A stretch of DNA of 64,000 nt. Origin: Acorus gramineus. Taxonomy: Eukaryota > Streptophyta > Magnoliopsida > Acorales > Acoraceae. A program made the translations under genes and the position numbers. The notes below the pieces were generated by a model. It searched no databases. It worked only from the letters and a program-made list of their open reading frames with translations, and was not told where the DNA came from. Of this stretch, positions 6,925 through 52,763 are shown piece by piece (the stretch's first letter is position 1; each line of letters begins with the position of its first letter). Location of the stretch: positions 20,693,868-20,757,867 of the forward strand of contig CM060852.1 of assembly GCA_030737835.1 (NCBI GenBank). The letters run 5' to 3'.

Positions 6925-9900
6925 TTATTCTGGATTCAGGTGCTCACTTCTATCAGGGGAGGGTGGCGGGCCACCCGGATTGTCGCTCAATTCGTTCTCT
7001 TTGCTGCCCAATTTGTCGTCCATTTTGTCATGGTGAAATCTCACAACAATGCAAGTGATGTTATCCGCACTGCCTCGGGTGTAGGCGGCCTCCGTCAACT
7101 TCCGGGCCGCCGCCTCAGGTTCGTCTTCTGAACCAGCAAGCGTAACGGCATCCTTACATAAGACGGTACACATGATTTAGGCAACTGTTTGGAACCATTT
7201 TTTTTTATAAAAAAAGTCTTATTTTCTAAAAGGCACTCTCAATCAGTTTTATTTTTTTCGTAAAAATTGTTTTATTGAAACATAAAACATATATTTGAAA
7301 AATACGTGATTGGAATCCAGAAATGGATTTTGTTTTAGACTGGTTGGTTCGTACCCAATAAAGGAAGTATAATTACATCAATTTTACTCCGACCAACCAA
7401 AGGTTCCTTATTCCAGATTAGGTTTCTACAATGTTACCAAAAGGGACTGCTATTAAATAAAGGATAAAAAAATGATATTAATCCTATGATATTAACCCCC
7501 CTGCAAACTTCTTGAAATTGTGATAACCCTTCTAGAATTACGAAAGCGAAATAACCCCTTTAGTAAATTTGCCTAGTTAAGCTTTTAAACCCCAGTTACA
7601 TTGCCATCCATATAAATAGTAAATATATTGAGAGAGAGGTTCAGTTGAATGTCAGTTACCCATTTTTGAAATATATGAAAATCCCCTTGCAAAAAATACA
7701 GAAAATTCAAATAGAACCCTCTAGTCATGATTATACCTTATCCATCTAAGGGTGCGTTTGGTTGCGCGATTGCAAAACTGATTCTCTAAGAATCTGGGTT
7801 TTAAAACTGATTCTGCAGGAAGCTCACTTTCTCAGCTTTTTGAAATCGCAGCTTTTGGGCACTATTTGCATGAAATCTGTGTGCAGGAAACTGCTACAGA
7901 AAAACTGTTTGATTGCACAATTGCAAACGCAGCTTCCTGTAATCGCAAACGATGCGCAATCACGCAACCAAACGCACCCTAAGAGATATTTCTCCTAACA
8001 CTTGAAAGTGGGGGATAGGAACATAGTTTCTTACCCATGATTTGGTAAAAAAATGTGACCTAAGGGGGTGCATGAATTTGTTGAAACTTTGCGGAGGTTT
8101 ATATTGATTTTGTAATTATGCAGGGGGTTATCACCATTTCAAAAAGTTCAAGGGGTTTACATCAATTTTTTCTGCAATTAAAGTTGATGCAAGATGATAA
8201 GGTGCATGTGTGGGCTACAAGATTATAGGCCCTTACAATTATTTTGGAAATGTTGTTTCACACACATGGATAGAGGACAACACAATGATGCTCGTGTAAT
8301 TGGGGTGGCAAAGGAATACTAACCTCATTAGGCACTACATCCCAAAGCCCATCACTGGCCAGAACCATGAACTCCAATTCTTTGTCAACCTCATCCTCCT
8401 GTGACAAGCGTAAAACAGGATATATGATAACCATATATGCGGCCAAATATAGTACTATTGTAAGTCCATAACATGCCAACAAAATGCTTCCATGTAGAAA
8501 ATTTAAGAGACTTGAATCAATATGGAAAAATGCAAAAGGTTTCGTGTCGGTTGATGCATAAATATGTTGGCATGCTTTTTAATGGTTATTAAGTCATCCA
8601 AATGGAACAAATCCCCAACTATCAAACTATAATGCATGAAATTATGCCAGTTGTAATTCTATATCTTGGGTTCTGGAAGATCTTAATTTTTCATGAAAAT
8701 AAATCTGCCCACATGAGGGGATGCATATGGGTGAAAATGCATTGGCTTCATTGATTGCATAACTACAAAAAATCCCCAATGTTTCAAATTGGCAATCCAT
8801 CTATGCAATAGGCTAGCAACTCAATCTTCAATTATATATCATCATTAAAGGCAAAGTATTCGAGAGTGGAAAGACAAACTGGAATCACTTCGCTCAGTTG
8901 TTGAAATTTATACCATGCATCAAATCATCATACATGATTCCCTGACCACATGTGAGTTGTTGGGCTGGGGTTATTATGTACCAGAGTGACTAATCAGGGT
9001 GATTGTTTAATTACTTTGCATCAAGTACATGTGGGTATTCTACATAAATATAGATTGCAATGACAAAAACAGAATAAATTGAGAAACAACGGCTCATTTG
9101 AAATACACTAATTCTCTTGGAAATATCATCAAGTACCTGAATCTCAGGCTCTGCCACAACAAACTGTTTCAGTAATCGGTTACCGAATGCACGTGACATT
9201 GCTAACACACCCCCAACTCTCCATGTACCTGTGGCGTGACATGCAAAAGTCCTCAAATGGATTTGCCATAAATGGAGGATTTATTTGTTATGTTTTCTGT
9301 ATGCCAAAATGAAACGCTATGATCAGAGACAATGCATGCAATAGCTAATTATGAGACAAGCTCCCATTAGATCCCATCAGCAGACACTTGAATTCTGTGC
9401 CTTTTTTAAGGGCCCTGTTATGCAATATACCCTTCTAAACCCACAAATGACTCAAAAACCTTGACATTTAGATCTACTGCCAAGCAGAACTTCCTCAAAA
9501 TGAGATTCTAATATGGAAAATATTGTGATCAGTAAGGGAGACTTGCCAGCCCACATAACAATTCCACCAGCATTTTCTATTCTCCGGCGCTCATCACTTC
9601 TATTTGGCTTGTGGTCATCTGAGAGAGCAATGGCTATCCAGCAGAAGAAATGGAACACTTTAGAGATAAATTGAATGCATTCTAATCTAGGTAAAGAGTG
9701 AGCCATCAACAAATAATCATACCATATTTTAGAACAAGAACAATAAGAAATGGTCAATTTAATAAATTTTTATTCCAGAACCAGCATGCAAAAACTGACA
9801 GAACTGTCCATGATGAATAAAGTTAAATGTAGAGCTACTTTCTATCGAATTAAGACAATAAATTCCACTTGGTGCTTTTCGAGCAGCAGAAAAACAGGAG

Positions 9901-12900
9901 TGACAAACGCATGCAAGCATTAAAGATGCATTACCAATCCAGAAGAATTGTCTAAAAGCATCTTCATTCCTTAATGTACTTTACACTTGTACCCCCTGCT
10001 TTTGTCGCTTGAGAGGTGTGGTATCTATATAAAAACTAAGTGGTTTCTTTATCTCGCTACAGAATATCAAATTGATGATTGTTTTGCACGGGTTGTTCTT
10101 TACATAAATGATGATCTAGTGATTATAGGAGATAAATTCAAATTTTCATATGCTAGGTTAACAGTTTCTAACATATCAATACATCTAGCATGCTTTTTCA
10201 ATGACCGACAAAGCTTACAAAAAATCTTAGCACACTAAGGCTGTGTTTGGTTGCACAATTGCAAAACTGATTTTAGGCAAAAGCTAGGTTTAAAACTGAT
10301 TTTGCATGAAGCTGTCTTTCCACGGCTTCTGGAAAACTTAGGTTTTGAGTATTTATTCTCAAAAATTTTCTGCAGTTTTTGGCCCCAGTTTTTCTATTTG
10401 GAAACGGGTTTAGAAAAAGCAACTTTCTGCAAACCCAAAAACCGTCCAACCCGTTTCCAAATGGGACCTAAAAGAGAAGCTCTAATGGGCAAAGATGAGT
10501 ATAATTAAAATACAATGTATTGATGACAGACCATTTTTGGTTTGCAGTTTAGATGTAGTTCTCATTCCATAATGTTTTTTTCATAAACACCCATTTGACT
10601 AATAATTCTCAATGGCTATCCAGTCATAAATTATAAGCATTACAGCAATTCATGTAGGAGAAACTGAACATTCAGAAGGAAGAAGAGCTCAATAGTCATA
10701 TATATTTAGTATCAGTGGCTGGTAAGCAATGTGCATCCAAACTAAGGCGATATAGTAACATCTCTTTCAGTTTCATGCTGTAATATCAGAGGGATACAAT
10801 TCATTTTCCAAAACAGATTCTCTGTATATCCAAGAACTAGTACCTTTCCCAGCCTTTGATATCACTGCACGGGAATCTCCAACATTTGCTACATATAAAT
10901 GGCGGCCAACTAATACAGCTGTTGAAGCTGTGGATCCATCATCTCTTGAACTATGACTTTCAGAATCCAAGAACTCTGAATCAGTCTTCTGATATGTATC
11001 ACCTGCAGCATGACCAGCAAAACAAAATAAATCAAAAGCAAAAACTTTACTGTAATATGTTACTGAGAAATAAACATGTCTAAACAAGCTAACAATGCAC
11101 TTAGCAATGTGTTAAGAACTTGAACACACTTATGGCTCTTTTAGTATCGGTCATGAACAGTGGATGTTTCATGAGATTCTCAAATAAGTGCTCTTTCAAG
11201 TACTCAGCAGCACGAGACCCTCCATGACCTGCAATGAGAAATCATTGTCAGTAAGTCCATAAAATAATTCATTACACGCAAAGTTACACATGAGAAGAGC
11301 AGAAGAGAAGCATACCGTCAAATATCCCAAACATGCAAACTGTCTGTCCATCAACCTTTGAGAGTTTAACATCAAAGAAATCTTCCATTGTTACTCGCTT
11401 TCCTCTAAAACTTGAGAAACCACAGCTCAATCTTCCATCTTCACTGACAATCAATTAAAAAATCCATGAGAATTATGTGATATAGCCCTCCAAACAAAGC
11501 ATCAAAACAAATAGTAAAGGGAAATACCAAAATATTGACAGTATGGAAAAGATACACTATTAGCTTTCTTTTTCTATGTAGAAACTTATTAAATCCTACA
11601 TGAGATCATTGGCAGTACAGAAAAGATACAGCCATTAGCTTTCTTTTCTAGGTATGTAGAAACTTATTAAGTCCTACATGAGATCATGACTCAACCTCAG
11701 AATAAAGCAGTCTTATTCCTTATTTATAGTAGTCAGAGAAAATTTCATAGGGCATGAATGTCATTTTTAAGTCATTCATCTTAATTTGCCTCTTAAGACT
11801 GGGATTATCAGGGACTGTGACAATTTATTGAAATTTATCAACTCAAAGTAAAACATGCTTATTTGTATTAATAGCTGCCAGACAAAAATATTGCTGTTCT
11901 TAGGTGCATTTACTTCTTATGACGATGATTATCTGCTCATTATAAAAGAGAAGCAATCAATGGAGATGAGCCAAGCTAGGCGAACTCCAAATGATTGATC
12001 AGCTATGAATTGGCCTGGATTGGTGGAACCATTACAACCCCGGAGGCTACAATTAACTCACACCAAAAGTCTATTGTACATGGTCAGTAATTAATTCAAG
12101 CCTAATGTACACATTTTTCCTTGTTTGAAGCCCTCATCTCCTTTGTTTGGGGCTTCTTTTATTAATAAGATAGCTCCAATATCTTCTTCCACAAAGAAAA
12201 GGAAAAAAGAAAAAGAATTGACCATATATTTTGTATGCTATAATTTAAATTTGGACCCAGGCAAGCTTGACAAAAATAAGTCCTAGGTAAATCTTGCATG
12301 CAAGACAAGCTAACTTGCCTTACTGACAATGTTTACCTCAGGTACCCGCCCACCCCACCCCAACCAAAAAAAAAAACTTCTGCAAGAACCACTCCAAATC
12401 TAGGTTTCCTCCCACATGATGGGCACTTAATTTTCAATTGAATTGCAGAAAGTCACAATAGGTACTTTTTCCAACAAACAGCAAAAATAAGCTTCTCCAA
12501 CCTCAAATATCCAATACTACTACCACTACCAGGCGAACATTCCGATATGTCCTCTCTTCTTCTTTTTTTCTAAAGATTCCAAAATAATAGGGGAAAAACA
12601 GGTTTTTGACTGAATATGTCAGTTGACTCATTTCAATAAATTTTGTATGCCCATTTTAATTATGCACTCAATTGAGCCTCTCCAGCACATAAGATGCAGA
12701 TATCCATCATCTTTATCCTACTTTGTATGATTGCTCTTGTAACGATGCTAATCTTACAGGGTACTGAACTTGTAAAGAGTAGGGCAAACTCCTATAACTA
12801 GTATATCGTTCTATGAGATGACTTCATTCAGAAAAATACTGAGGTTTCGTTAGACAGGTAAAATGTAATTTGAGGAAGGAAAATACTAAGCATGAATGTA

Positions 12901-13872
12901 ATTTTCATTCATTTTCAATTTGATGGCTCTCTAAGTTGATGTGATCTCATTTTATGTAGCCAGATATATGTTTGTGAAATTTATTATGTTATTTTCACCA
13001 TATGTGTTTGACGATCGATCGAGCTTTCCCTCTATAAATAGCACATACTCATTTCATAAAGAGTGTATATAGCTCTCAGACATGTGCCGTCCACTTGCCC
13101 ATTGCGGAGATTCTAAACTCAATACGACAATCTAAACCCATCGACCTTTCTTTATATGATTTTAACGAAAACACAGGTATAGTCCACGTTTCCAATAAAA
13201 CCCAAGGAAATTAACAAGCGACTGGATCACCAATATCTGGTCCTATCCCATCATTGAATCTCAACAAACGACAAAAAGAACAAAAATCTGCACAGTGGTT
13301 TCAACTCATAAAACATGACAAAAACAGGCAGCAACAATGAAAAGTTGCCTTTTTCCCACAATTTTCTTCTCTCAGAATTTAAAACTACAACCACAGATTG
13401 AATTCAAGTTTTTGAATTTCCCATATCAGCCACAGGCAAAGAAACCACAAATATCAAGAAGCACCAACTAATCAGAATCAAATTTTCAGACAATAAGAAA
13501 AATCAAAATTTTAAAATATTTCAGGCGCACATTGAACACTCAATCACCGTATACCAATAATAATAATAATAATGATGATGATAATAATGATGATGATGAT
13601 GATGATCACCTTTTCCAACCCCCGCTCGAGTAACCTCCGTCGTTATGGTTCCGCTCCTTCCTCGGCAACACATCCACCACCGCCCCAGAATCGGCGGCGT
13701 TCGCCGTCATCCCCCCCACGTCGACCATCATCGTCGATACAAAAGCCCTGAACCCGCGCTTCGGAGAGAAAAGCGACCTCGGATTCGGATCCAGCTCCCT
13801 CCGCCGCAACAACAACCTGGGCAGGCCAACCGCACGAACCACCGCGCTCCTCAAGCTAGCACTGCATAACAT
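6925..13872 (-). CDS. PP2C76: Protein phosphatase 2C, PP2C76 type (copy 1, complete)
   Basis: Metal-dependent Ser/Thr phosphatase. Eight coding exons on the minus strand: 13610-13872, 11316-11443, 11130-11228, 10844-11002, 9547-9633, 9137-9228, 8324-8398 and 6925-7152 (1131 nt, 376 aa); all junctions keep frame. The start is the ATG at 13872, directly after an in-frame TAG. Residues 1-47 are Arg/Ser-rich and look like an organelle presequence (inference). The PP2C core starts near 93: GKRVTMED (E108, D109), FDGHGG (D130, G131), [41 protein letters not shown] (D292) and [11 protein letters not shown] (D331). All metal-binding acids are present. The order and wording match Arabidopsis At5g53140 from memory; the C-terminal tail is shorter. 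Intron 5 is GC-AG. It is head-to-head with a SnRK1 alpha gene; target unknown. Confidence 0.93.
7463..8180. mobile_element. TIR element in PP2C intron 7, Mutator-like
   Basis: The left end (GATATTAACCCCCCTGCAAAC..TTGAAATTGTGATAACC blocks) is mirrored by the right end (complement TTGATGTAAACCCCTTGAAC..TTGAAATGGTGATAACC blocks). Interior AT-rich, non-coding. Flanks share ATTAAA but no clean target duplication is visible, so the ends are approximate. It hosts a nested Tourist-like MITE at 7750-7979. It is present only in copy 1 because copies 2 and 3 lack this part of the gene. Confidence 0.5.
7750..7979. mobile_element. Tourist-like (PIF/Harbinger) MITE, 230 bp
   Basis: Near-perfect terminal inverted repeats GGGTGCGTTTGGTTGCGCGA / complement GGGTGCGTTTGGTTGCGTGA, flanked by the 3-bp target duplication TAA (7747-7749 and 7980-7982). 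The interior carries CAAAACTGATTCT words. It sits inside the older TIR element of intron 7. Clean ends suggest it is younger than its host element. Confidence 0.8.
10239..10468. mobile_element. Tourist-like MITE in PP2C intron 4 (copy 1)
   Basis: Same length (230 bp) and same left half as the MITE at 7750-7979 (GTGTTTGGTTGC, CAAAACTGATTTT). It is flanked by TAA on both sides (10236-10238, 10469-10471). The right end has diverged (ends CCAAATGGGACC), so the inverted repeat is now poor. Confidence 0.65.
11539..11690. repeat. 74-bp tandem duplication in PP2C intron 1
   Basis: Two imperfect units (starting 11539 and 11613) share GAAAAGATACA, TTAGCTTTCTTTT, GTAGAAACTTATTAA and CCTACATGAGATCAT. 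The same duplication is in copies 2 (about 26714-26865) and 3 (about 40789-40940), so it predates the array. Confidence 0.75.
13554..13609. repeat. Trinucleotide microsatellite next to the PP2C intron-1 donor
   Basis: (TAA)n/(TGA)n runs end directly at the donor of intron 1 on the minus strand (donor GT at 13609-13608). The tract differs in each array copy (28734-28782 and 42816-42860), so bases from about +6 of the intron differ between copies. Confidence 0.75.
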
Positions 13873-14130
13873 CTAAAAGCCTCGTGAACGGAAAACCAGA
13901 TCTCTCTCTCCCTCTCTCTAAAAAAGATAAAAACCTCGTCCGGAAGTCGAATCGTGTATCGATCTCGCGATCGGTGGAAGGCGGATCTCTTGATTTGAAG
14001 AAGAGAAGCTTCGGATTGTCGGATCGGGATCATGTAGGGGGCGATCGAACGTAGAGAGGATTGAAACCCTAAGAGAGAGAGAACAAGCGGAGGAGGAGAG
14101 AGAGAGAGAGAGAGAGAGAGGGTATATATA
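13873..14130 (-). promoter_or_regulatory. PP2C 5' leader and core promoter (copy 1)
   Basis: Reading leftward, a TATATATA box lies at 14123-14130, followed by a CT-rich (GA on plus) tract at about 14095-14120, typical of plant leaders, then about 220 bases of leader to the ATG at 13872. A second CT tract lies at 13900-13922. The transcription start is inferred near 14095. Confidence 0.55.
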
Positions 14131-15239
14131 GGGGGGGAGAGGACCGACTATCGGGAGCAACGAACGTGGCACAGGCAGACCCCCGCATGCATCCAGCTCC
14201 TCCTCCTCTAGAACTGTCTGTTCCGGAGTCCGGTCTGTTGCTTCGCGGGGTTAAACACGGTTGTTAAGCTGCTCTTGCGGACGTCTGGGGTCAGGATAGC
14301 TTGAATAAACCAGTATTTGTATATCATAATCATAATTAATTTATATATAGAGTGTTATTCTAAGTTATTCAATCTAAAAAAATATATGGATCCACTGTTA
14401 AATCAATCGTCATCATTTTTTATAAATCTACTATCATTATTTTTCATCTTTTATAAATTATTATCCACGTTTTATTTACATTTTATTTAAAAAAATCATA
14501 AAAAATTTATTATTACATCTTCCAATGAAAATAATTCAAAACATAACCAACAAAAAAATTATTTTATCTTTATTTATACTAGAATAGTTATAAAACTCAG
14601 AATAACTTAATTCTCAAACCAAACAGGACATTGGAGACTTGGAGTTATTTTAGGTCCTCAAACCCCATTATTTGATATTTCTAAATCCTTTTGAGTAATA
14701 GCTAAGTTCATCATTAACATTTCTATTTTTATTCTACCTTTCACCTTGTTAAGAGGTCTGGACTCTGGATACATTATTAAAAAGTCTAAATACACTATTA
14801 ACAAGTATAGGTACATGGTTAAGACCCGCGAGAGGAAATGACAGGAGAGAGAGTCACCAAAAGGAGGGGTGACTGGAAGGCTGCACGCAGAGAAGAGAGA
14901 CTGTCGTTAATGTAGATGGAAGAAAGAGGAGGGGACAAAAATAAAAAATGAAAATAGATGCAAAAGTGTAAAAAAATTGAGTAAAAAAATGACCCCAATT
15001 GAATAGAAGGACCTATAAATAATACTTCAACTAATTTAGATGTCTAAAAATAAATTCAGTTGCTTCATAAACCTAAAAATGTATATACTTATCTATATTA
15101 GAATACATACTCTTACATGAATTAGAATACACTTGATATACACTAATATATTTTTTAAAAAATAAAACTTTTTATAAACTAGTTACTATTATAAAAGCCA
15201 TACAATGTGATGACGCAGATCAGATCTCGTCTGTTATCG
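14131..15239. promoter_or_regulatory. Bidirectional intergenic promoter region, copy 1 only
   Basis: About 1.1 kb between the divergent genes, absent from copies 2 and 3. An ACGTGGC word (ABRE-like) lies at 14164-14170, 34 bp upstream of the PP2C TATA. A TTATAAAAG box at 15189-15197 could serve the kinase gene. The rest is AT-rich with no gene. The segment is bounded by GGAGA on both sides (about 14136 and 15238), which fits loss in the other copies by microhomology joining. Confidence 0.55.
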
Positions 15240-15333
15240 GAGACCAAAAAAGCCCACGCCCAATTAAATTTAACCTTTATAAAGACAAAAAAACTAGGAC
15301 CGTTTAGTCGCTGGACCTTGTGGGTTTCCATCG

Positions 15334-15381
15334 ATGATTCGACGGTCAGATCTTCAAGAATCACTCAGAACACCTGTTTGA
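15334..15381 (+). CDS. Short upstream ORF in SnRK1 alpha leader (copy 1)
   Basis: ATG at 15334 opens a 15-codon frame (MIRRSDLQESLRTPV) closed by TGA, wholly inside the inferred leader exon and out of reach of the main start. Copies 2 (29405-29452) and 3 (43486-43533) carry the same uORF. A role in translational control is possible but unproven. Confidence 0.3.
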   Translation: MIRRSDLQESLRTPV

Positions 15382-16124
15382 CGGTTGAGATTCTCAAATA
15401 ATTGTCTGAACTCGTACTGGTTGGGGGGACCCCCCCTCTTCCCCCAAATCAGAAGCTTTTCGTCTTCGTTGAGATCGGTTGTCGTAGTAAAAAAAAAAAC
15501 GATTTCGGACTCCCGAAATCCCCCAATTTTCAGTGCTTTCTTGAAAGCCGTCGTCGAAAAATTGAGGTACTTTTGTGTTTTTATTTTCACGTCGGTTCAC
15601 GGTCGAATCGGCGGAGTATCGTATGTTCGATTGTCGTGGTTTTAATCGATCTCGGTTTTGGGGGGGACTTTTTAGGGTTCGGTTGGTGTTTTTTGGTGGA
15701 ATATAGGGTCTATTGGAGGGTTTTTTTTATTCAGAATTGAAGCTTGGATTCGGATTCTGGTTTTTGTGATATTTGAAGGTTTGGATCTGTTCGATTCGAT
15801 GTTTTGAGTTACTTTGATGGATTCCGTTTTGGCATCAGATAAAGAATTCATGAAAAAGTTCAGGTTTTGGAATTTTAAGGATTATCCAAAGAAAGTTTGG
15901 GCTTTCGTGTCAAATTATAGATAATGATGTTGTTGATTTGGCCTTTTGAATGCTGAATTTGGATGGTAAACGAAAAAGAATGTGTAAACGGGTCTATAAT
16001 GTTATTGGTGGATTTTAATCTCTTTTAATAATTGAGTATACTTGGATGGGATCTCATTTAATGTAGTCTATAGGTTAATGTAATAGATGTTAATTCATCT
16101 AGATGGAGAGTGTTTTTAGTTTGT

Positions 16125-16200
16125 GCGTTGACATAGATCAATGGTTGACAACAGAATTTGCAACCACGAGGTGCTTGGTTCAAATCCCGTCATTTACTTA
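16125..16200 (+). mobile_element. tRNA-derived SINE-like head in leader intron
   Basis: ATAGATCAATGGTTGACA (16133-16150) resembles a tRNA A box, and GGTTCAAATCC (16177-16187) is a perfect B box, spaced as in tRNA genes. The intervening stem is not tRNA-like and no CCA-type end is seen, so this is a SINE head rather than a tRNA gene. The same sequence is in copies 2 (about 30204) and 3 (about 44305). The tail is not defined. Confidence 0.5.
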
Positions 16201-16672
16201 TTAATAAAAAACACATCGAGGATGGAAAATGTGTGGGAAAACTTAAAAGAACGTTGAAATATCTTCCGTCTGAGTAAGGTGGATGATGGTTCAAATGAAG
16301 TTGAATTAGTTGTTTATTCTACGTAGAATTAGTCAATTAGATCCGATTATCATGAATATAAAAGCTAATGACTTGAAGGCACAACTATCATCTATTGATA
16401 GATGATATATGGTTTCTGATTTACTCTAAATTCATAAATTAGCATCGGTCAGTGTTGGTCAAATTTGAAACTTTTTATGAAGTTTGTAAACCATGAGAAT
16501 TTCTCATTCAATTTATGACAGCAGGTTTTTTTTTATTTTATTATTATTTTGGTTTTGTTTGTTTGGGTCATATGTTTAGATGGGTGAAAATTTTATAACT
16601 TTTATCAGTGCATGCATGTTTGAACTCATGTTTTTTGGTCTGATATTCTTGGTTGTGCTTTTCACCTAGGGA

Positions 16673-21944
<5,272 letters not shown>

Positions 21945-22648
21945 ATCTCAGTTACGTGCCCGAAGATCATTTGAAGCCTTCCTGTCTGTTGTGAAATAAG
22001 TGTATGTCGACGCTGTAAATTCTGTCCAAATTTTTTTTGTTCTGCTTGAGGTATTTCTATAACTTGGACTATTTTGTTTTCCTTAACCAGTCTTTTTGAG
22101 GTGTGATTTGCAACTTAAGCACCCGTGGGCAGGTGACCAAACTTTGGCAGTTCTGTTGCTCTGTGGTGATTTTTTTGGCCAATGCCGCCTATATTTGGCT
22201 TGGTGAATGTTGCTCCTTTTTTTTGTTTGAATTGGTTCTCTCTCTAAATGAGTAAATCTTCAGTTTTTCTTAAGAAAAATATATTTGGATTATGACATTG
22301 TTTAACCTACTTACTGCCGTTGTCAAGTTTTTCCATATTTTTCAGTGGTAAGAGATTTAATTCCAAAACCAAACAATCTGTGGATTTAACTACTCTGTTG
22401 TTTTTCGGAATGATCTCATGAACCAGATGCTTTGTAAGGTTATATTAATGGTTGGAGGTGGCAAGGGATTTAGAAGTTGTCTGTTTAGTGATGATAGAAA
22501 AATGGAGATAATAGATTTTGGTGTGCATGAATTTTAGCACTGATATATTTGTAGAGCTTAGCGTGATGTTAGCTTGCAGTAGATCCTTGTAGTCACATCT
22601 ACTCTTCTTTTTATAGGCGTGGTAAATTTTTTGTTTTGTTAAATTTTA
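21945..22648. other. SnRK1 alpha 3' UTR and flank (copy 1)
   Basis: The 3' UTR is inferred to start at 21945; no further gene is seen. It ends at a 10-bp word TTAAATTTTA (22639-22648) that is the left target duplication of the Mutator-like element. Confidence 0.5.
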
Positions 22649-23071
22649 TGGTTAAAGACATTCAAGTCTTTACAAACTTGAAAAAATCTATGTAAATCTT
22701 TGTTAAAGTTGGGATAGACGTATAAGTTCTTTTACAAATGCTAAAAAAGCCATATACATCCTTGCAATTAATAGAAGTTAACCTTAACTTAACCTAACTT
22801 ACTTGACCCTGAAATGACTAATACATCCTTGACTTATTCTCTCCCATCGATCTCTCTCATCTGCCCCCCCCCCCCCCCCCCCCCCCCTTCAACCCTCCAT
22901 GAGACCCGAAGATCTAGTTTGGCATGAGGATAATGAGTTAGGATAAAGAAAAAAATTAAATTAAATCCCTTTATATCTTATATGGCATAAAAAAAAATGG
23001 GGATAAAGTATGGACAATTGTACACGTTTTGAGATAAAAAAATATGAATAATTTGTTATGAGTTAAAAGTG
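22649..23071. mobile_element. Left part of Mutator-like element (after copy 1)
   Basis: Matches the left 425 bp of the whole element at 51140-52763, including its long terminal repeat-like end and a poly-C run (24 C at 22864-22887). It stops at 23071, exactly where the array junction spacer starts. Confidence 0.7.
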
Positions 23072-23243
23072 GAATAAGTCAAGGATGCATTAGTATCACC
23101 ACAAGTCATTGATGGAGTCCACGTGGCGATCACCCGACCGCCGATCTTAAAAAGACAATCACAGCCGATGGACTGAATTGGACTTGTGGAGCTGTTAGAC
23201 GGACGCGTGGCAGTATCGGGTCCATCCGTTGGCTCACCGTATC

Positions 23244-23519
23244 TAGGGATGAAAGTGAAACGGGATAAATGGAAAACTCGTCTCGACCTTATTGAGATGA
23301 GATTTTCAAATTTGTACCCTTCTAAATAGTATGAGATGTGACGGATTTGAGTTCTTTAAAAATCCGTTGGAACGGGTTTAGGATGACATAATAAAACCCG
23401 ACACAGGTTTGGGGCGGAATAATAAAACCCGTCACGGGTTTAGGGAGGGTTTATGATAAAATTTTATTAGTGGGTTTGGGATTGAAATTGACCAAACATC
23501 TGCCCCGTTGCCATCCCTA
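23244..23519. mobile_element. hAT-like MITE in junction spacer 1
   Basis: Ends TAGGGATGAAAGTGAAACGGG and complement TAGGGATGGCAACGGGGC are inverted. The 8-bp flanks ACCGTATC (23236-23243) and ACCATATC (23520-23527) agree at 7 of 8. The interior repeats AAACCCGTCACGGGTTT dyads. Confidence 0.7.
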
Positions 23520-23624
23520 ACCATATCGATCTCGACCACCCAATAGAACAAGGCGGAGTGACTGGTTTTATTGGGATGTATTAGAATCGTTAGATTTCGC
23601 ATTAGACGGATACTATTTTAATGA

Positions 23625-24074
23625 GGGGAAAATCCAAATAACCCATATAAATTGCCTGAAATCTATGTAACCTTTAATTTTTCCTAAAATCATATAACTC
23701 CTGAAAACACATATATAAATATAAATGATCCTTTAAGTTAAACTTCTGTTGACAGATAAGAAATATTATGTAAATATTCTGTTTGATTAGCTATGACTAA
23801 AAACAAAGTATATCAAAAACCCCTTATAATTATTTTAAAATGCAGAAAAACATCTATAAATGACGATTTTATCACTTCGAATAGATTATAAAACTCTATT
23901 CACATGGACAAAATCATTATTTATATAAGATTTTTCATATTTTAAATATTATGTTTTCATCTATGGTTAATCAGATAAAATATTGACATAATAATCATAA
24001 TCTGGCTATTTGGATTTGTTTTCATGGAGTTAAATGGATCTTAGATAGTTTACAAGGGGTTATATGTATTTTCC
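23625..24074. mobile_element. Mutator-like MITE in junction spacer 1, 450 bp
   Basis: Inverted ends GGGGAAAATCCAAATAACCC / complement GGAAAATACATATAACCCC, flanked by 9-bp TTTTAATGA (23616-23624) and ATTTAATGA (24075-24083), 8 of 9 matching. Same family as 4405-5039. Confidence 0.65.
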
Positions 24075-24113
24075 ATTTAATGAATAATGTGACAGTTGTA
24101 TTTGTTGTTATTT

Positions 24114-29045: not shown

Positions 29046-29315
29046 CTAAAAGCCTCGTGAACGGAAAACCAGATCTCTCTCTCCCTCTCTCTAAAAAAGA
29101 TAAAAACCTCGTCCGGAAGTCGAATCGTGTATCGATCTCGCGATCGGTGGAAGGCGGATCTCTTGATTTGAAGAAGAGAAGCTTCGGATTGTCGGATCGG
29201 GATCATGTAGGGGACGATCGAACGTAGAGAGGATTGAAACCCTAAGAGAGAGAGAACAAGCGGAGGAGGAGAGAGAGAGAGAGAGAGAGAGAGGGTATAT
29301 ATAGGGGGGGGAGAC
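29046..29315. promoter_or_regulatory. Fused divergent promoter, copy 2
   Basis: PP2C leader and TATATATA box (about 29296-29303) joined directly, through GGGGGGGGAGACC, to the SnRK1 alpha leader region. The retained kinase TTTATAAAG box starts at 29347, so the two divergent TATA-like boxes are about 45 bp apart. The ABRE-like word and the upstream TTATAAAAG box of copy 1 are missing. Confidence 0.6.
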
Positions 29316-30741: not shown

Positions 30742-30744
30742 GGA

Positions 30745-36014
<5,270 letters not shown>

Positions 36015-36719
36015 ATCTCAGTTACGTGCCCGAAGATCATTTGAAGCCTTCCTGTCTGTTGTGAAATAAGTGTATGTCGACGCTGTAAATTCTGTCCAAA
36101 TTTTTTTTGTTCTGCTTGAGGTATTTCTATAACTTGGACTATTTTGTTTTCCTTAACCAGTCTTTTTGAGGTGTGATTTGCAACTTAAGCACCCGTGGGC
36201 AGGTGACCAAACTTTGGCAGTTCTTCTGTTGCTCTGTGGTGATTTTTTTGGCCAATGCCGCCTATATTTGGCTTGGTGAATGTTGCTCCTTTTTTTTGTT
36301 TGAATTGGTTCTCTCTAAATGAGTAAATCTTCAGTTTTTCTTAAGAAAAATATATTTGGATTATGACATTGTTTAACCTACTTACTGCCGTTGTCAAGTT
36401 TTTCCATATTTTTCAGTGGTAAGAGATTTAATTCCAAAACCAAACAATCTGTGGATTTAACTACTCTGTTGTTTTTCGGAATGATCTCATGAACCAGATG
36501 CTTTGTAAGGTTATATTAATGGTTGGAGGTGGCAAGGGATTTAGAAGTTGTCTGTTTAGTGATGATAGAAAAATGGAGATAATAGATTTTGGTGTGCATG
36601 AATTTTAGCACTGATATATTTGTAGAGCTTAGCGTGATGTTAGTTTGCAGTAGATCCTTGTAGTCACATCTACTCTTCTTTTTATAGGCGTGGTAAATTT
36701 TTTTTTTTGTTAAATTTTA
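36015..36719. other. SnRK1 alpha 3' UTR and flank (copy 2)
   Basis: Counterpart of 21945-22648; no gene seen. Confidence 0.5.
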
Positions 36720-37139
36720 GGGTTAAAGACATCTAAGTCCTTATAAACTTGAAAAAATCCATATAAATCCTTGTTAAAGTTGGGATAGACGTATAAGTTC
36801 TTTTACAAATGCTAAAAAAGCCATATACATCCTTGCAATTAATAGAAGTTAACCTTAACTTAACCTAACTTACTTGACCCTGAAATGACTAATACATCCT
36901 TGACTTATTCTCTCCCATCGATCTCTCTCATCTGCCCCCACCCCCCCCCCCCCCCTTCAACCCTCCATGAGACCCGAAGATCTAGTTTGGCATGAGGATA
37001 ATGAGTTAGGATAAAAAAAAAATTGGATTAAATCCCTTTTTATCCCATATGACATAAAAAAAAATGGGGATAAAGTATGGACAATTGTATACGTTTTAAG
37101 ATAAAAAAAAATGGGATAGTTTGTTATGGGTAAAAAGTG
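36720..37139. mobile_element. Left part of Mutator-like element (after copy 2)
   Basis: Same truncated left part as after copy 1, with an interrupted poly-C run near 36936-36955, ending at the junction spacer. Confidence 0.7.
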
Positions 37140-37311
37140 GAATAAGTCAAGGATGCATTAGTATCACCACAAGTCATTGATGGAGTCCACGTGGCGATCA
37201 CCCGACCGCCGATCTTAAAAAGACAATCACAGCCGATGGACTGAATTGGACCTGTGGAGCTGTTAGACGGACGCGTGGCAGTATCGGGTCCATCCGTTGG
37301 CTCACCGTATC

Positions 37312-37594
37312 TAGGGATGAAAGTGAATCGGGATAAATGGAAAACTCGTCTCGATCTTATTGAGACGAGATTTTTAAATTTGTACCCTTCTAAATAGAAT
37401 GAGATGTGATGGATTTGAGTTCTTTAAAAACCCGTTGGAACGGGTTTAGAATGACATAATAAAACCTGACACAGTTTGGGGCGGAATAATAAAACCCGTC
37501 ACGGGTTTGGAGCGGGTTTACGATAAAATTTTATTAGTGGGTTTGGGATTGAAATTGACCAAACCCATCCCAACCTGCCCCGTTGCCATCCCTA
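37312..37594. mobile_element. hAT-like MITE in junction spacer 2
   Basis: Counterpart of 23244-23519. It keeps a few bases lost from spacer 1 near its right end (CCATCCCAACCTGCCCCG). Confidence 0.65.
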
Positions 37595-37699
37595 ACCATA
37601 TCGATCTCGACCACCCAATAGAACAAGGCGGAGTGGCGGGTTTTATTGGGATGTATTAGAATCGTTAGATTTCGCATTAGACGGATACTATTTTAATGA

Positions 37700-38149
37700 G
37701 GGGAAAATCCAAATAACCCATATAAATTGCCTGAAATCTATGTAACCTTTAATTTTTCCTAAAATCATATAACTCCTGAAAACACATATATAAATATAAA
37801 TGATCCTTTAAATTAAACTTCTGTTGACAGATAAGAAATATTATGCAAATATTCTGTTTGATTAACTATGACTAAAAACAAAGTATATCAAAAACCCCTT
37901 ATAATTATTTTAAAATGCAGAAAAACATCTATAAATGACGATTTTATCACTTCGAATAGATTATAAAACTCTATTCACATGGACAAAATCATTATTTATA
38001 TAAGATTTTTCATATTTTAAATATTATGTTTTCATCTATGGTTAATCAGATAAAATATTGACATAATAATCATAATCTGGCTATTTGGATTTGTTTTCAT
38101 GGAGTTAAATGGATCTTAGATAGTTTACAAGGGGTTATATGTATTTTCC
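37700..38149. mobile_element. Mutator-like MITE in junction spacer 2
   Basis: Counterpart of 23625-24074, same length and flanks (37691-37699, 38150-38158). Confidence 0.65.
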
Positions 38150-38188
38150 ATTTAATGAATAATGTGACAGTTGTATTTGTTGTTATTT

Positions 38189-41100
38189 TTACAATGTAAT
38201 GAAATGATGAGAATGTCTACAGTACGTGAATAAATGACACGTGTTTATTAATGATTGATCCAACAATCTTGCTGCATGTATAAATGTGGGTCTATAAATA
38301 TAGATTGCAATGACAAAAACAGAATAAATTGAGAAACAACGGCTCATTTGAAATACACTAATTCTCTTGGAAATATCATCAAGTACCTGAATCTCAGGCT
38401 CTGCCACAACAAACTGTTTCAGTAATCGGTTACCGAATGCACGTGACATTGCTAACACACCCCCAACTCTCCATGTACCTGTGGCGTGACATGCAAAAGT
38501 CCTCAAATGGATTTGCCATAAATGGAGGATTTATTTGTTATGTTTTCTGTATGCCAAAATGAAACGCTATGATCAGAGACAATGCATGCAATAGCTAATT
38601 ATGAGACAAGCTCCCATTAGATCCCATCAGCAGACACTTGAATTCTGTGCCTTTTTTAAGGGCCCTGTTATGCAATATACCCTTCTAAACCCACAAATGA
38701 CTCAAAAACCTTGACATTTAGATCTACTGCCAAGCAGAACTTCCTCAAAATGAGATTCTAATATGGAAAATATTGTGATCAGTAAGGGAGACTTGCCAGC
38801 CCACATAACAATTCCACCAGCATTTTCTATTCTCCGGCGCTCATCACTTCTATTTGGCTTGTGGTCATCTGAGAGAGCAATGGCTATCCAGCAGAAGAAA
38901 TGGAACACTTTAGAGATAAATTGAATGCATTCTAATCTAGGTAAAGAGTGAGCCATCAACAAATAATCATACCATATTTTAGAACAAGAACAATAAGAAA
39001 TGGTCAATTTAATAAATTTTTATTCCAGAACCAGCATGCAAAAACTGACAGAACTGTCCATGATGAATAAAGTTAAATGTAGAGCTACTTTCTATCGAAT
39101 TAAGACAATAAATTCCACTTGGTGCTTTTCGAGCAGCAGAAAAACAGGAGTGACAAACACGTGCAAGCATTAAAGATGCATTACCAATCCAGAAGAATTG
39201 TCTAAAAGCATCTTCATTCCTTAATGTACTTTACACTTGTACCCCCTGCTTTTGTCGCTTGAGAGGTGTGGTATCTATATAAAAACTAAGTGGTTTCTTT
39301 ATCTCGCTACAGAATATCAAATTGATGATTGTTTTGCACGGGTTGTTCTTTACATAAATGATGATCTAGTGATTATAGGAGATAAATTCAAATTTTCATA
39401 TGCTAGGTTAACAGTTTCTAACATATCAATACATCTAGCATGCTTTTTCAATGACCGACAAAGCTTACAAAAAATCTTAGCACACCAAGGCTGTGTTTGG
39501 TTGCACAATTGCGAAACTGATTTTAGGCAAAAGTTAGGTCTAAAACTGATTTTGCAGGAAACTGCCTTTCCACGGCTTCTGGAAAACTTAGGTTTTGAGT
39601 ATTTATTCTCAAAAATTTTCTGCAGTTTTTGGCCCCAGTTTTTCTATTTGGAAACGGGTTTAGAAAAAGCAACTTTCTGCAAACCCAAAAACCGTCCAAC
39701 CCGTTTCCAAATGGGACCTAAAAGAGAAGCTCTAATGGGCAAAGATGAGTATAATTAAAATACAATGTATTGATGACAGACCATTTTTGGTTTGCAGTTT
39801 AGATGTAGTTCTCATTCCATAATGTTTTTTTCATAAACACCCATTTGACTAATAATTCTCAATGGCTATCCAGTCATAAATTATAAGCATTACAGCAATT
39901 CATGTAGGAGAAACTGAACATTCAGAAGGAAGAAGAGCTCAATAGTCATATATATTTAGTATCAGTGGCTGGTAAGCAATGTGCATCCAAACTAAGGCGA
40001 TATAGTAACATCTCTTTCAGTTTCATGCTGTAATATCAGAGGGATACAATTCATTTTCCAAAACAGATTCTCTGTATATCCAAGAACTAGTACCTTTCCC
40101 AGCCTTTGATATCACTGCACGGGAATCTCCAACATTTGCTACATATAAATGGCGGCCAACTAATACAGCTGTTGAAGCTGTGGATCCATCATCTCTTGAA
40201 CTATGACTTTCAGAATCCAAGAACTCTGAATCAGTCTTCTGATATGTATCACCTGCAGCATGACCAGCAAAACAAAATAAATCAAAAGCAAAAACTTTAC
40301 TGTAATATGTTACTGAGAAATAAACATGTCTAAACAAGCTAACAATGCACTTAGCAATGTGTTAAGAACTTGAACACACTTATGGCTCTTTTAGTATCGG
40401 TCATGAACAGTGGATGTTTCATGAGATTCTCAAATAAGTGCTCTTTCAAGTACTCAGCAGCACGAGACCCTCCATGACCTGCAATGAGAAATCATTGTCA
40501 GTAAGTCCATAAAATAATTCATTACACGCAAAGTTACACATGAGAAGAGCAGAAGAGAAGCATACCGTCAAATATCCCAAACATGCAAACTGTCTGTCCA
40601 TCAACCTTTGAGAGTTTAACATCAAAGAAATCTTCCATTGTTACTCGCTTTCCTCTAAAACTTGAGAAACCACAGCTCAATCTTCCATCTTCACTGACAA
40701 TCAATTAAAAAATCCATGAGAATTAGGTGATATAGCCCTCCAAACAAAGCATCAAAACAAATAGTAAAGGGAAATACCAAAATATTGACAGTATGGAAAA
40801 GATACACTATTAGCTTTCTTTTTCTATGTAGAAACTTATTAAATCCTACATGAGATCATTGGCAGTACAGAAAAGATACAGCCATTAGCTTTCTTTTCTA
40901 GGTATGTAGAAACTTATTAAGTCCTACATGAGATCATGACTCAACCTCAGAATAAAGCAGTCTTATTCCTTATTTATAGTAGTCAGAGAAAATTTCATAG
41001 GGCATGAATGTCATTTTTAAGTCATTCATCTTAATTTGCCTCTTAAGACTGGGATTATCAGGGACTGTGACAATTTATTGAAATTTTATCAACTCAAAGT

Positions 41101-43123
41101 AAAACATGCTTATTTGTATTAATAGCTGCCAGACAAAAATATTGCTGTTCTTAGGTGCATTTACTTCTTATGACGATGATTATCTGCTCATTATAAAAGA
41201 GAAGCAATCAATGGAGATGAGCCAAGCTAGGCGAACTCCAAATGATTGATCAGCTATGAATTGGCCTGGATTGGTGGAACCATTACAACCCCGGAGGCTA
41301 CAATTAACTCACACCAAAAGTCTATTGTACATGGTCAGTAATTAATTCAAGCCTAATGTACACATTTTTCCTTGTTTGAAGCCCTCATCTCCTTTGTTTG
41401 GGGCTTCTTTTATTAATAAGATAGCTCCAATATCTTCTTCCACAAAGAAAAGGAAAAAAGAAAAAGAATTGACCATATATTTTGTATGCTATAATTTAAA
41501 TTTGGACCCAGGCAAGCTTGACAAAAACAAACAAAGTCCTAGGTAAATCTTGCATGCAAGACAAGCTAACTTGCCTTACTGACAATGTTTACCTCAGGTA
41601 CCCGCCCACCCCACCCCAACCAAAAAAAAAAACTTCTGCAAGAACCACTCCAAATCTAGGTTTCCTCCCACATGATGGGCACTTAATTTTCAATTGAATT
41701 GCAGAAAGTCACAATAGGTACTTTTTCCAACAAACAGCAAAAATAAGCTTCTCCAACCTCAAATATCCAATACTACTACCACTACCAGGCGAACATTCCG
41801 ATATGTCCTCTCTTCTTCTTTTTTTCTAAAGATTCCAAAATAATAGGGGAAAAACAGGTTTTTGACTGAATATGTCAGTTGACTCATTTCAATAAATTTT
41901 GTATGCCCATTTTAATTATGCACTCAATTGAGCCTCTCCAGCACATAAGATGCAGATATCCATCATCTTTATCCTACTTTGTATGATTGCTCTTGTAACG
42001 ATGCTAATCTTACAGGGTACTGAACTTGTAAAGAGTAGGGCAAACTCCTATAACTAGTATATCGTTCTATGAGATGACTTCATTCAGAAAAATACTGAGG
42101 TTTCGTTAGACAGGCAAAATGTAATTTGAGGAAGGAAAATACTAAGCATGAATGTAATTTTCATTCATTTTCAATTTGATGGCTCTCTAAGTTGATGTGA
42201 TCTCATTTTATGTAGCCAGATATATGTTTGTGAAATTTATTATGTTATTTTCACCATATGTGTTTGACGATCGATCGAGCTTTCCCTCTATAAATAGCAC
42301 ATACACTCATTTCATAAAGAGTGTATATAGCTCTCAGACATGTGCCGTCCACTTGCCCATTGCGGAGATTCTAAACTCAATACGACAATCTAAACCCATC
42401 GACCTTTCTTTATATGATTTTAACGAAAACACAGGTATAGTCCACGTTTCCAATAAAACCCAAGGAAATTAACAAGCGACTGGATCACCAATATCTGGTC
42501 CTATCCCATCATTGAATCTCAACAAACGACAAAAAGAACAAAAATCTGCACAGTGGTTTCAACTCATAAAACATGACAAAAACAGGCAGCAACAATGAAA
42601 AGTTGCCTTTTTTCCCACAATTTTCTTCTCTCAGAATTTAAAACTACAACCACAGATTGAATTCAAGTTTTTGAATTTCCCATATCAGCCACAGGCAAAG
42701 AAACCACAAATATCAAGAAGCACCAACTAATCAGAATCAAATTTTCAGACAATAAGAAAAATCAAAATTTTAAAATATTTCAGGCGCACATTGAACACTC
42801 AATCACCGTATACCAATAATAATAATAATAATAGTAATAATAATGAAAAACAAAAATCACCTTTTCCAACCCCCGCTCGAGTAACCTCCGTCGTTATGGT
42901 TCCGCTCCTTCCTCGGCAACACATCCACCACCGCCCCAGAATCGGCGGCGTTCGCCGTCATCCCCCCCACGTCGACCATCATCGTCGATACAAAAGCCCT
43001 GAACCCGCGCTTCGGAGAGAAAAGCGACCTCGGATTCGGATCCAGCTCCCTCCGCCGCAACAACAACCTGGGCAGGCCAACCGCACGAACCACCGCGCTC
43101 CTCAAGCTAGCACTGCATAACAT
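38189..43123 (-). pseudogene. PP2C76 type phosphatase, 3'-truncated (copy 3)
   Basis: Exons 1-6 at 42861-43123, 40566-40693, 40380-40478, 40094-40252, 38797-38883 and 38387-38478. Same truncation as copy 2: the join at 38294 removes exons 7 and 8 and with them two metal-binding aspartates. Exon 6 can again read through in frame to a stop at 38189, giving a 341-aa product with a 65-residue foreign tail. The encoded part matches copy 1 (it has [10 protein letters not shown], not the change seen in copy 2). The intron-1 donor is followed by different bases than in copies 1 and 2 (GTGATTTTTG). Confidence 0.88.
39489..39718. mobile_element. Tourist-like MITE in PP2C intron 4 (copy 3)
   Basis: Duplicate of the copy-1 MITE. 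The left flank has changed from TAA to CAA; the right flank is still TAA. Confidence 0.65.
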
Positions 43124-43346
43124 CTAAAAGCCTCGTGAACGGAAAACCAGATCTCTCTCTCCCTCTCTCTAAAAAAGATAAAAACCTCGTCCGGAAGTCG
43201 AATCGTGTATCGATCTCGCGATCGGTGGAAGGCGGATCTCTTGATTTGAAGAAGAGAAGCTTCGGATTGTCGGATCGGGATCACGTAGGGGACGATCGAA
43301 CGTAGAGAGGATTGAAACCCTAAGAGAGAGAGAACAAGCGGAGGAG

Positions 43347-43377
<31 letters not shown>

Positions 43378-43396
43378 TATATAGGGGGGGGGAGAC
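43124..43396. promoter_or_regulatory. Fused divergent promoter, copy 3
   Basis: Same fusion as in copy 2 (TATATATA near 43376-43383, then GGGGGGGGGAGACC), lacking the 1.1-kb segment of copy 1. Confidence 0.6.
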
Positions 43397-44841
43397 CAAA
43401 AAAGCCCACGCCCAATTAAATTTAACCTTTATAAAGACAAAAAAACTAGGACCGTTTAGTCGCTGGACCTTGTGGGTTTCCATCGATGATTCGACGGTCA
43501 GATCTTCAAGAATCACTCAGAACACCTGTTTGACGGTTGAGATTCTCAAATAATTGTCTGAACTCGTACTGGTTGGGGGGACCCCCCCTCTTCCCCCAAA
43601 TCAGAAGCTTTTCGTCTTCGTTGAGATCGGTTGTCGTAGTAAAAAAAAAAACGATTTCGGACTCCCGAAATCCCCCAATTTTCAGTGCTTTCTTGAAAGC
43701 CGTCGTCGAAAAATTGAGGTACTTTTGTGTTTTTATTTTCACGTCGGTTCACGGTCGAATCGGCGGAGTATCGTATGTTCGATTGTCGTGGTTTTAATCG
43801 ATCTCGGTTTTGGGGGGGACTTTTTAGGGTTCGGTTGGTGTTTTTTGGTGGAATATAGGGTCTATTGGAGGGTTTTTTTTTATTCAGAATTGAAGTTTGG
43901 ATTTCCGATTCCGTACTCGACTCGGATTCTGGTTTTTGTGATATTTGAAGGTTTGGATCTGTTTGATTCGATGTTTTGAGTTACTTTGATGGATTCCGTT
44001 TTGGCATCAGATAAAGAATTCATGAAAAAGTTCAGGTTTTGGAATTTTAAGGATTATCCAAAGAAAGTTTGGGCTTTCGTGTCAAATTATAGATAATGAT
44101 GTTGTTGATTTGGCCTTTTGAATGCTGAATTTGGATGGTAAACGAAAAAGAATGTGTAAACGGGTCTATAATGTTATTGGTGGATTTTAATCTCTTTTAA
44201 TAATTGAGTATACTTGGATGGGATCTCATTTAATGTAGTCTATAGGTTAATGTAATAGATGTTAATTCATCTAGATGGAGAGTGTTTTTAGTTTGTGCGT
44301 TGACATAGATCAATGGTTGACAACAGAATTTGCAACCACGAGGTGCTTGGTTCAAATCCCGTCATTTACTTATTAATAAAAAACACATCGAGGATGGAAA
44401 ATGTGTGGGAAAACTTAAAAGAACGTTGAAATATCTTCCGTCTGAGTAAGGTGGATGATGGTTCAAATGAAGTTGAATTAGTTGTTTATTCTACGTAGAA
44501 TTAGTCAATTAGATCCGATTATCATGAATATAAAAGCTAATGACTTGAAGGCACAACTATCATCTATTGATAGATGATATATGGTTTCTGATTTACTCTA
44601 AATTCATAAATTAGCATCGGTCAGTGTTGGTCAAATTTGAAACTTTTTATGAAGTTTGTAAACCATGAGAATTTCTCATTCAATTTATGACAGCAGGTTT
44701 TTTTTTATTTTATTATTATTTTGGTTTTGTTTGTTTGGGTCATATGTTTAGATGGGTGAAAATTTTATAACTTTTATCAGTGCATGCATGTTTGAACTCA
44801 TGTTTTTTGGTCTGATATTCTTGGTTGTGCTTTTCACCTAG
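43397..44841 (+). promoter_or_regulatory. SnRK1 alpha leader and leader intron (copy 3)
   Basis: As copies 1 and 2, with 19 extra bases in the leader intron at about 43902-43920 and the uORF at 43486-43533. Confidence 0.6.
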
Positions 44842-44844
44842 GGA

Positions 44845-50449
<5,605 letters not shown>

Positions 50450-51139
50450 ATCTCAGTTACGTGCCCGAAGATCATTTGAAGCCTTCCTGTCTGTTGTGAA
50501 ATAAGTGTATGTCGACGCTGTAAATTCTGTCCAAATTTTTTTTGTTCTGCTTGAGGTATTTCTATAACTTGGACTATTTTGTTTTCCTTAACCAGTCTTT
50601 TTGAGGTGTGATTTGCAACTTAAGCACCCGTGGGCAGGTGACCAAACTTTGGCAGTTCTTCTGTTGCTCTGTGGTGATTTTTTTGGCCAATGCCGCCTAT
50701 ATTTGGCTTGGTGAATGTTGCTCCTTTTTTTTGTTTGAATTGGTTCTCTCTCTAAATGAGTAAATCTTCAATTTTTCTTAAGAAAAATATATTTGGATTA
50801 TGACATTGTTTAACCTACTTACTGCCGTAGTCAAGTTTTTCCATATTTTTCCAAAACCAAACAATCTGTGGATTTAACTACTCTGTTGTTTTTCGGAATG
50901 ATTTCATGAACCAGATGCTTTGTAAGGTTATATTAATGGTTGGAGGTGGTTGGGATTTAGAAGTTGTCTGTTTAGTGATGATAGAAAAATGGAGATAATA
51001 GATTTTGGTGTGCATGAATTTTAGCACTGATATATTTGTAGAGCTTAGCGTGATGTTAGCTTGCAGTAGATCCTTGTAGTCACATCTACTCTTCTTTTTA
51101 TAGGCGTGGTAAATGTTTTTTTTTTTTTGTTAAATTTTA
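50450..51139. other. SnRK1 alpha 3' UTR and flank (copy 3)
   Basis: Counterpart of 21945-22648 with a 20-bp deletion near 50851. No gene. Confidence 0.5.
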
Positions 51140-52763
51140 GGGTTAAAGGCATCTAAGTCCTTATAAATTTGAAAAAATCCATATAAATCCTTGTTAAAGT
51201 TAAGATAGACGTATGAGTCCTTACAAATACTAAAAAAGCCATATACATCCTTACAATTAACAGAAGTTAATTTTAACTTAACTTAACTTATTAAACCCTA
51301 ACATATATAATGAAATGACTAATGCATCCTTGACTTATTCTCTCCCATCGAGCTCTCTCATCTGCCCCCTCCCCCCCCCCCTTCAACCCTCCATGAGACC
51401 CGAAGATCTAGTTTGGCATGAGGATAATGAGTTAGGATAAAAAAAAAATTGGATTAAATCCCTTCTTATCCCATATGACATGAAAAAAAATGAGGATAAA
51501 GTATGGACAATTGTACACGTTTTAAGATAAAAAAAAATGGGGATAGTTTGTTATGAGTAAAAAGTGAAACAGACTTTGTCCTAATTTTTTATCCTAATTT
51601 TATAAAATTGGGATAACATTTATTACTACCATTTTAAAAAAAAATAAATGAAAAAAAAAAAAAAAATGTGTTCCACTAAACAATATTAATGCCCCATTTA
51701 ATAGGAAGGATATATTTGATATTTTTTAAAAAAATTTAAAATTATTCCATATGTGATTCAAATGCAGGATAATAAAATAAAAAATAAAGATAATAAAAAA
51801 CATTATCAAATACAAATTTGAATAAAAATAATAATTTTTTTATCTTCATAAATTAAACTAATTTATCATAAAAATTTATCCTTCTACGAAATTAGACTTA
51901 AAAATAAAATAAAAGGGTCTGCTGATCCCTCCACGAATCGTCCACGACAACAACCCTGTCAGTGTTCATTGTTGGCGTCCGGCGGCGTGGATCTTACGAA
52001 GAAAGACCGATAATCGTTCATCATTAGCGTCCCTTGTTAATTATTTTGGACGGTGTTTAGTGGAAAACAAATTCATCGGAAGGGATAGTAGAGATTGGGA
52101 TTTGATGGTTTTGTCGAAGATATTTTCGAATGTGTTGCATGTTGATATTTGGTCAAAGATTCGTATGGGTTGAAGAAGAGATCAATGACATTCGGTGGTA
52201 AATTTAGTAAAGGCTAGGGGCTTTAAAGAATGTCACATGGGTTGTCACGTGAGCATGGTTTAATTCGTTTTTCCCTGTGTATTTTAATGAATGTTAGTGG
52301 CTCTAAAACACAATGGAAGTTGAATGAAAATAGTTTGATGTTTATTATATTTTATTTAGTTTGATAATATTTTAGTAAACTAGAATTATTTGAGTCTTTT
52401 TTAACCAGTAATGATATGGGAAATTGATTTCATAAAAAAATATGAATAATGTAGGGACTAATTTATCTTTATGATTGTTTATAGGGATCAAAATGTGTAT
52501 ACAACTTAACATAAAAATCTTTCAAGAGCAATTTTGTCTTTTGCATAGACTAATTTATTTTTATGACTGTTTATAAAACTTTAATGTCTACACAATTACG
52601 TGTGATGAAATATTCTGTTAAGTTTGAATGAAAATTTAACTCAGGGATGATAATTGGATTTTTGTGAGTTTTTAAAGACTCGTATGTTTGTCCTTGTCCT
52701 AACTTTAAATGGGACTTATATGGATTTTCTCATGTTTGTAGGGATTTAGATGTCTTTAACCCT
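51140..52763. mobile_element. Mutator-like element, non-autonomous, 1.6 kb
   Basis: Long imperfect terminal inverted repeats of over 100 bp: left GGGTTAAAGGCATCTAAGTCC, right in complement GGGTTAAAGACATCTAAATCC. They are flanked by an exact 10-bp duplication TTAAATTTTA (51130-51139 and 52764-52773), in the Mutator size range. The interior has a C-run (51364-51380), AT-rich parts and a GC-richer block at about 51915-52060. No transposase is seen. The right breakpoint of the gene array (51566) lies inside it; copies 1 and 2 keep only its left part. Confidence 0.75.

Follow-up and report, generated by a model that had tools for sequence, protein, structure and literature searches.

A tandem array of three SnRK1-alpha units with one complete and two truncated PP2C genes in the genome assembly of Acorus gramineus

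Genes and units of the array

The sequence examined, called the window throughout, is a stretch of 64,000 nucleotides of Acorus gramineus (C6:20693868-20757867) from a genome assembly of 398.6 Mb in 137 contigs. Comparison of the window with itself revealed a head-to-tail array of 42.5 kb (9044-51566), made of three tandem units which match one another at 98–99%, and the features of this array are collected in Table 1. The initial annotation had described three SnRK1-alpha genes in tandem with identical 509-aa products, each standing head-to-head with a PP2C gene or remnant, and both points were borne out in all three units, the first by the units of the self-comparison together with a CDS of 1530 bp which is identical letter for letter in the three copies, and the second by a PP2C on the opposite strand upstream of each kinase gene.

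The reading frame of SnRK1-alpha is intact in all three copies, and each has nine coding introns, all of GT..AG type. The protein gives Pfam matches to Pkinase (PF00069, E 7.9e-82), UBA (PF00627, E 8.3e-09) and KA1 (PF02149, E 9e-13); by these kinase, UBA and KA1 domains, and by the presence of the T-loop segment, it is like Arabidopsis KIN10/KIN11, SNF1 and AMPK-alpha. The array exons match a KIN10 sequence one by one. The number of coding exons also agrees with the 10 exons which the available text of one study gives for two SnRK1 genes of Eucalyptus (PMC6600528).

The PP2C gene of unit 1 has a complete catalytic domain, and its product covers PF00481, the domain of plant PP2C (PPM) phosphatases, from 3 to 255 of 255. 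Units 2 and 3 keep exons 1–6 only, since each unit begins within intron 6; the catalytic domain is incomplete there (exons 7–8 absent), and the remnant type covers 3–196 of PF00481 only, when the unit 1 letters of exons 1–6 are used as query. If the intron is read through, the remnants reach 341 aa and are without the SDGLWD and ADN segments, which we take to hold metal-binding residues (C-terminal Asp). The earlier description of the SnRK1/PP2C locus as tripled is thus true of the whole gene only for the kinase, as two of the three PP2C copies lack the exons bearing SDGLWD and ADN. The PP2C of the array presumably resembles Arabidopsis PP2C76. Its intron 5 (9547, minus strand) is GC-AG in all three units and begins with GT in the paralogue on contig C3, which is described below.

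At the junction of units 1 and 2, the right end of the segment and PP2C intron 6 have only short words in common, e.g. ATGTGGGT, and the junction of units 2 and 3 (38293/38294) is identical to it over 50 bp. In the self-comparison the repeat similarity of unit 3 ends at 51566, and the missing part of this unit lies further on: the stretch 23097-24218 of unit 1 recurs at C6:20777709-20778848, 97% identical and about 32 kb to the right of 51566. The span 6925..51566 given in the initial annotation is therefore correct at its left side, where 6925 is the end of the PP2C stop codon, and at its right side marks the end of similarity, the true end of unit 3 being the displaced piece. The spacer 23072-24218 was also considered as junction filler, and this was rejected on account of the same displaced end. 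A genome search with the whole spacer gave no second locus among the best 40 of 4,734 candidates, with shorter and weaker pieces only elsewhere.

The region to the right of the array has repeats of its own. Open reading frames of a Copia-type retroelement (RVT_2, rve and gag_pre-integrs by Pfam) occupy 53315-56868 on the minus strand, in the part of the interval between unit 3 and its displaced end that is inside the window. Two minisatellites follow at 58242-58778 and 59772-60063, with units of 28/55–56 bp which are rich in GTCGA-type words.

Table 1. Features of the array (positions in the window unless given for contig C6)
Feature	Position	Strand	Length	Remarks
Unit 1	9044..24218		15,175 bp	Retains the 1.1-kb intergenic piece
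Unit 2	24219..38293		14,075 bp	Mosaic: left-part deletion in common with unit 3, right-part deletion in common with unit 1
Unit 3	38294..51566		13,273 bp inside window	Final 1.1 kb outside, at C6:20777709-20778848
Complete PP2C gene, unit 1	6925..13872	-	376 aa	8 exons, open frame; intron 5 GC-AG
PP2C remnant, unit 2	24312..29045	-		Exons 1–6; one missense (A192D) against unit 1
PP2C remnant, unit 3	38387..43123	-		Exons 1–6; coding letters as in unit 1
SnRK1-alpha copy 1	16673..21944	+	509 aa	10 coding exons
SnRK1-alpha copy 2	30745..36014	+		10 coding exons; CDS as copy 1
SnRK1-alpha copy 3	44845..50449	+		10 coding exons; CDS as copy 1
Intergenic piece, unit 1 only	14140..15238		1,099 bp	PP2C end (to ~14194) matched on C3
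Piece in first coding intron of SnRK1, unit 3 only	45155..45487		333 bp	About the first 100 bases aligned on C3
Fast-diverging unit tail	22241..23072		832 bp	50 substitutions among the three copies
Duplication junction, unit 1/unit 2	24206..24230			Right end of segment joined to PP2C intron 6

Differences among the three units

The units are distinguished by two large pieces, one intergenic and one intronic (Table 1). Both are read as ancestral and lost elsewhere because C3 matches each of them at one end, and at that end only; for the 1,099-bp piece the matched stretch includes an identical word of 17 bp. On this reading, which comes from sequence comparison, the 1,099-bp piece would have been lost from units 2 and 3 and the 333-bp piece from units 1 and 2. 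The longer piece carries the words ACGTGGC (14164) and CATGCA (14186), which we take to be ABRE/G-box-like and RY-like respectively, and both words are also present on C3 near the PP2C start. Private transposon insertion was considered for both pieces, as match overlaps of 7–8 bp resembled target-site duplications, and was rejected because C3 matches part of both. A smaller piece of 19 bp at about 15749 is found only in unit 3 and likewise sets units 1 and 2 together; C3 has sequence of similar length at that place.

Among the units 102 substitutions were counted, of which 23, lying in three repeat stretches, were removed by masking. In the masked alignment of the left part (about 4,930 bp) units 2 and 3 differ at 8 sites, units 1 and 2 at 16 and units 1 and 3 at 12. 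In the SnRK1 region (about 6,949 bp masked), where the copies are about 0.1% apart, the differences are 7 for units 1 and 2, 6 for units 1 and 3 and 9 for units 2 and 3, and in the spacer they are 21, 19 and 25 for the same pairs. In the masked alignment of the tail units 1 and 2 differ at 24 of 827 sites, units 1 and 3 at 46 of 800 and units 2 and 3 at 30 of 801. The nearest relative of unit 2 is thus unit 3 on the left and unit 1 in the tail. After masking, unit 2 has in addition 15 substitutions which are private to it, including one within a homopolymer and one that is the PP2C missense change.

The SnRK1-alpha CDS has no substitution among the copies, whereas 3742 intron bases contain 11 (p 0.041, and 0.115 after masking), which gives a weak hint of constraint or conversion. 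The tail has another pattern: 40 of its substitutions are transitions and 38 of these stand in CHH context, and its stretch 22914-23072 is about 85% identical to a dispersed repeat (best 40 of 1,113 candidates). In the spacer, by contrast, the final 0.6 kb has four differing sites only among the three copies. To date the duplication by the divergence of units 1 and 3 in the tail is less likely to be correct because of this repeat, the CHH bias and the four-site spacer end.

Relatives of the array elsewhere in the genome

A SnRK1-alpha gene with open frame is present on contig C3 (26979891-26985693), and its protein is 88.6% identical to that of the array over 508 codons (Ks 0.53, Ka 0.056). 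To the left of it, in the same divergent orientation, lies a homologue of the array PP2C (best 109 of 139 candidates), and a second PP2C pair further right is also matched between C6 and C3. By these matches of PP2C and SnRK1-alpha the two regions are read as paralogous blocks. On C3 the distance between kinase and phosphatase is 37 kb and holds a LINE-like element (RVT_1) and a cyclic-nucleotide-binding (channel-like) gene, so at this one paralogous locus the short intergenic region is not kept. The channel-like gene gave no match in the window or near the array when all 12 candidates were scored, the nearest on C6 being at 18.96 Mb and 41% identical. The direct adjacency of PP2C and SnRK1-alpha on C6 may accordingly be ancestral or may be the result of loss of this channel-like gene. 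The proposal that kinase and phosphatase are paired across one promoter region is weakened, as units 2 and 3 are without 1.1 kb of the intergenic sequence and the C3 genes stand 37 kb apart with another gene between them.

Besides the array, the protein search of the genome (best 84 of 937 candidates) gave as SnRK1-alpha relatives at least the C3 gene, a more distant one on C2, and a broken fragment which is found on C10 and again on C64, and among the same candidates no further copy of array-like identity was found. The C2 gene (L041, 324-5412) is a divergent SnRK1-alpha-like gene, 37–73% identical per matched piece. The fragments on C10 (L042, 3877-6056) and C64 (L043, 4678-6835) are broken and partly inverted, with stops, and these two loci are 99% identical over 8 kb.

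Origin of the array and its meaning

Taken alone, the presence of three real units is considered highly probable. A fuller account, in which a segment of 15 kb was truly triplicated and unequal crossover gave the mosaic middle unit, is judged probable on the sequence comparisons made here. The segment would include all of SnRK1-alpha together with its upstream side, and exons 1–6 of the divergent PP2C. In the first step a single duplication of 15 kb would have given two units, A and B, with the join made in PP2C intron 6 at short common words. In the second step B would have been shortened by 1.1 kb upstream of the genes and A by 0.33 kb within an intron, and in the third an unequal crossover of misaligned units within about 15239-15749, on the upstream side of SnRK1, would have produced the order A - B/A - B.

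Crossover is proposed because unequal exchange between two units yields a middle unit with the left part of B and the right part of A, and unit 2 has two conflicting large deletions, the 1,099-bp one as in unit 3 and the 333-bp one as in unit 1, with the direction taken from C3. Tandem duplication and growth by unequal exchange are events of a known kind, and the array is like others of such origin in its head-to-tail units, in the junction repeated twice and in the mosaic middle unit; it differs from them in that the gene affected encodes a central regulatory kinase and belongs to a small family. The mechanism is thus of known kind, and it is the gene affected that makes the array unusual. 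By its appearance the array looks fairly recent.

To the right of the proposed crossover, the substitutions of the SnRK1 region and of the spacer do not make unit 1 the nearest to unit 2, and on this side the support for crossover comes from the indels and the tail only, the differences in the tail being clustered. Because the right-side substitutions do not settle the crossover, gene conversion between the units, in place of the crossover that added the unit, is retained as a rival source of the mosaic in a real triplication, and we regard it as unlikely. The SnRK1 region and the spacer have a nearly star-like pattern of substitutions, and the gene body has diverged little against the tail, both of which would agree with conversion; on the other hand, it requires a separate amplification with an identical junction plus long conversion tracts, whereas a single crossover agrees with both large indels and with the substitutions of the left part.

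It is also quite improbable that the middle unit is a product of assembly, in which an additional assembler loop turned two units, or a pair of two-unit haplotypes, into three, the false one being B-type on its left and A-type on its right. A loop in the graph does predict a mosaic such as unit 2, and a second near-identical duplication exists in the assembly, that of C10 and C64; but a plain loop would leave unit 2 with the letters of units 3 and 1, and a simple loop is unlikely because unit 2 has its 15 private substitutions, the PP2C missense among them. The copies are moreover about 0.1% apart in the SnRK1 region against about 1% for C10/C64, and even an artefact would require one or more real duplication junctions. 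A conserved and co-regulated kinase/phosphatase module amplified for joint dosage is very improbable, for although the divergent order is the same on the C3 block and the Arabidopsis PP2Cs ABI1 and PP2CA dephosphorylate SnRK1-alpha1 according to the available text of PMC4033248, two of the three PP2C copies are truncated and without 1.1 kb upstream, the channel-like gene and the LINE-like element stand between the genes on C3, and any action of the array PP2C on SnRK1 is conjectural.

If triplication with unequal crossover is accepted, its likely consequence, judged from gene structure, is a set of three kinase genes that all encode one protein, with less upstream sequence at copies 2 and 3, and a single working PP2C. 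If transcribed, the array represents three genes encoding one protein. A higher dosage of SnRK1 from it is putative. That the array naturally raises SnRK1-alpha dosage and alters its regulation, in that copies 2 and 3 are expressed from a trimmed upstream region without the ACGTGGC/CATGCA block, PP2C has a single working copy, the kinase-to-phosphatase balance is shifted and the identity of the CDS is kept by selection or conversion, is a tentative and rather doubtful possibility. In plants SnRK1 acts as a central switch for energy and stress, with SnRK1-alpha as its catalytic part, and by the gene-balance idea tandem duplication of dosage-sensitive regulators would be expected only rarely. 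An array which arose recently, and whose three copies encode identical proteins but differ in their upstream regions, would allow SnRK1 dosage to be tested in a natural setting, and the mosaic middle unit would be a record of how such arrays grow.

Published SnRK1 families are small in the available text of two studies, which accords with the initial statement that SnRK1-alpha is usually held in few copies: two to four genes are given for families elsewhere (PMC6600528), and three to four for Arabidopsis, rice and Liriodendron (PMC9578244). The two Eucalyptus SnRK1 genes, as described in the text available, lie on chromosomes 2 and 10, in contrast to the three identical tandem copies found here (PMC6600528). 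A study of seven Rosaceae species, in the part available, reports nine SnRK1 genes and counts tandem SnRK pairs without their subfamily, so that a SnRK1 pair may be among them (PMC10181103). In Brassica rapa SnRK1 genes were preferentially retained after whole-genome triplication, as stated in the accessible portion of PMC5301275. Among the titles and abstract beginnings covered by the literature search, neither a tandem array of SnRK1-alpha nor a head-to-head pair of SnRK1 and PP2C was found.

For the beta-type partner domain AMPKBI, the genome search gave seven matches on six contigs, with all seven candidates scored and none at the array locus. Two of these AMPKBI (SnRK1 beta-type) matches lie 14 kb apart, at C2:22600586 and C2:22614696, and are possibly a tandem pair.
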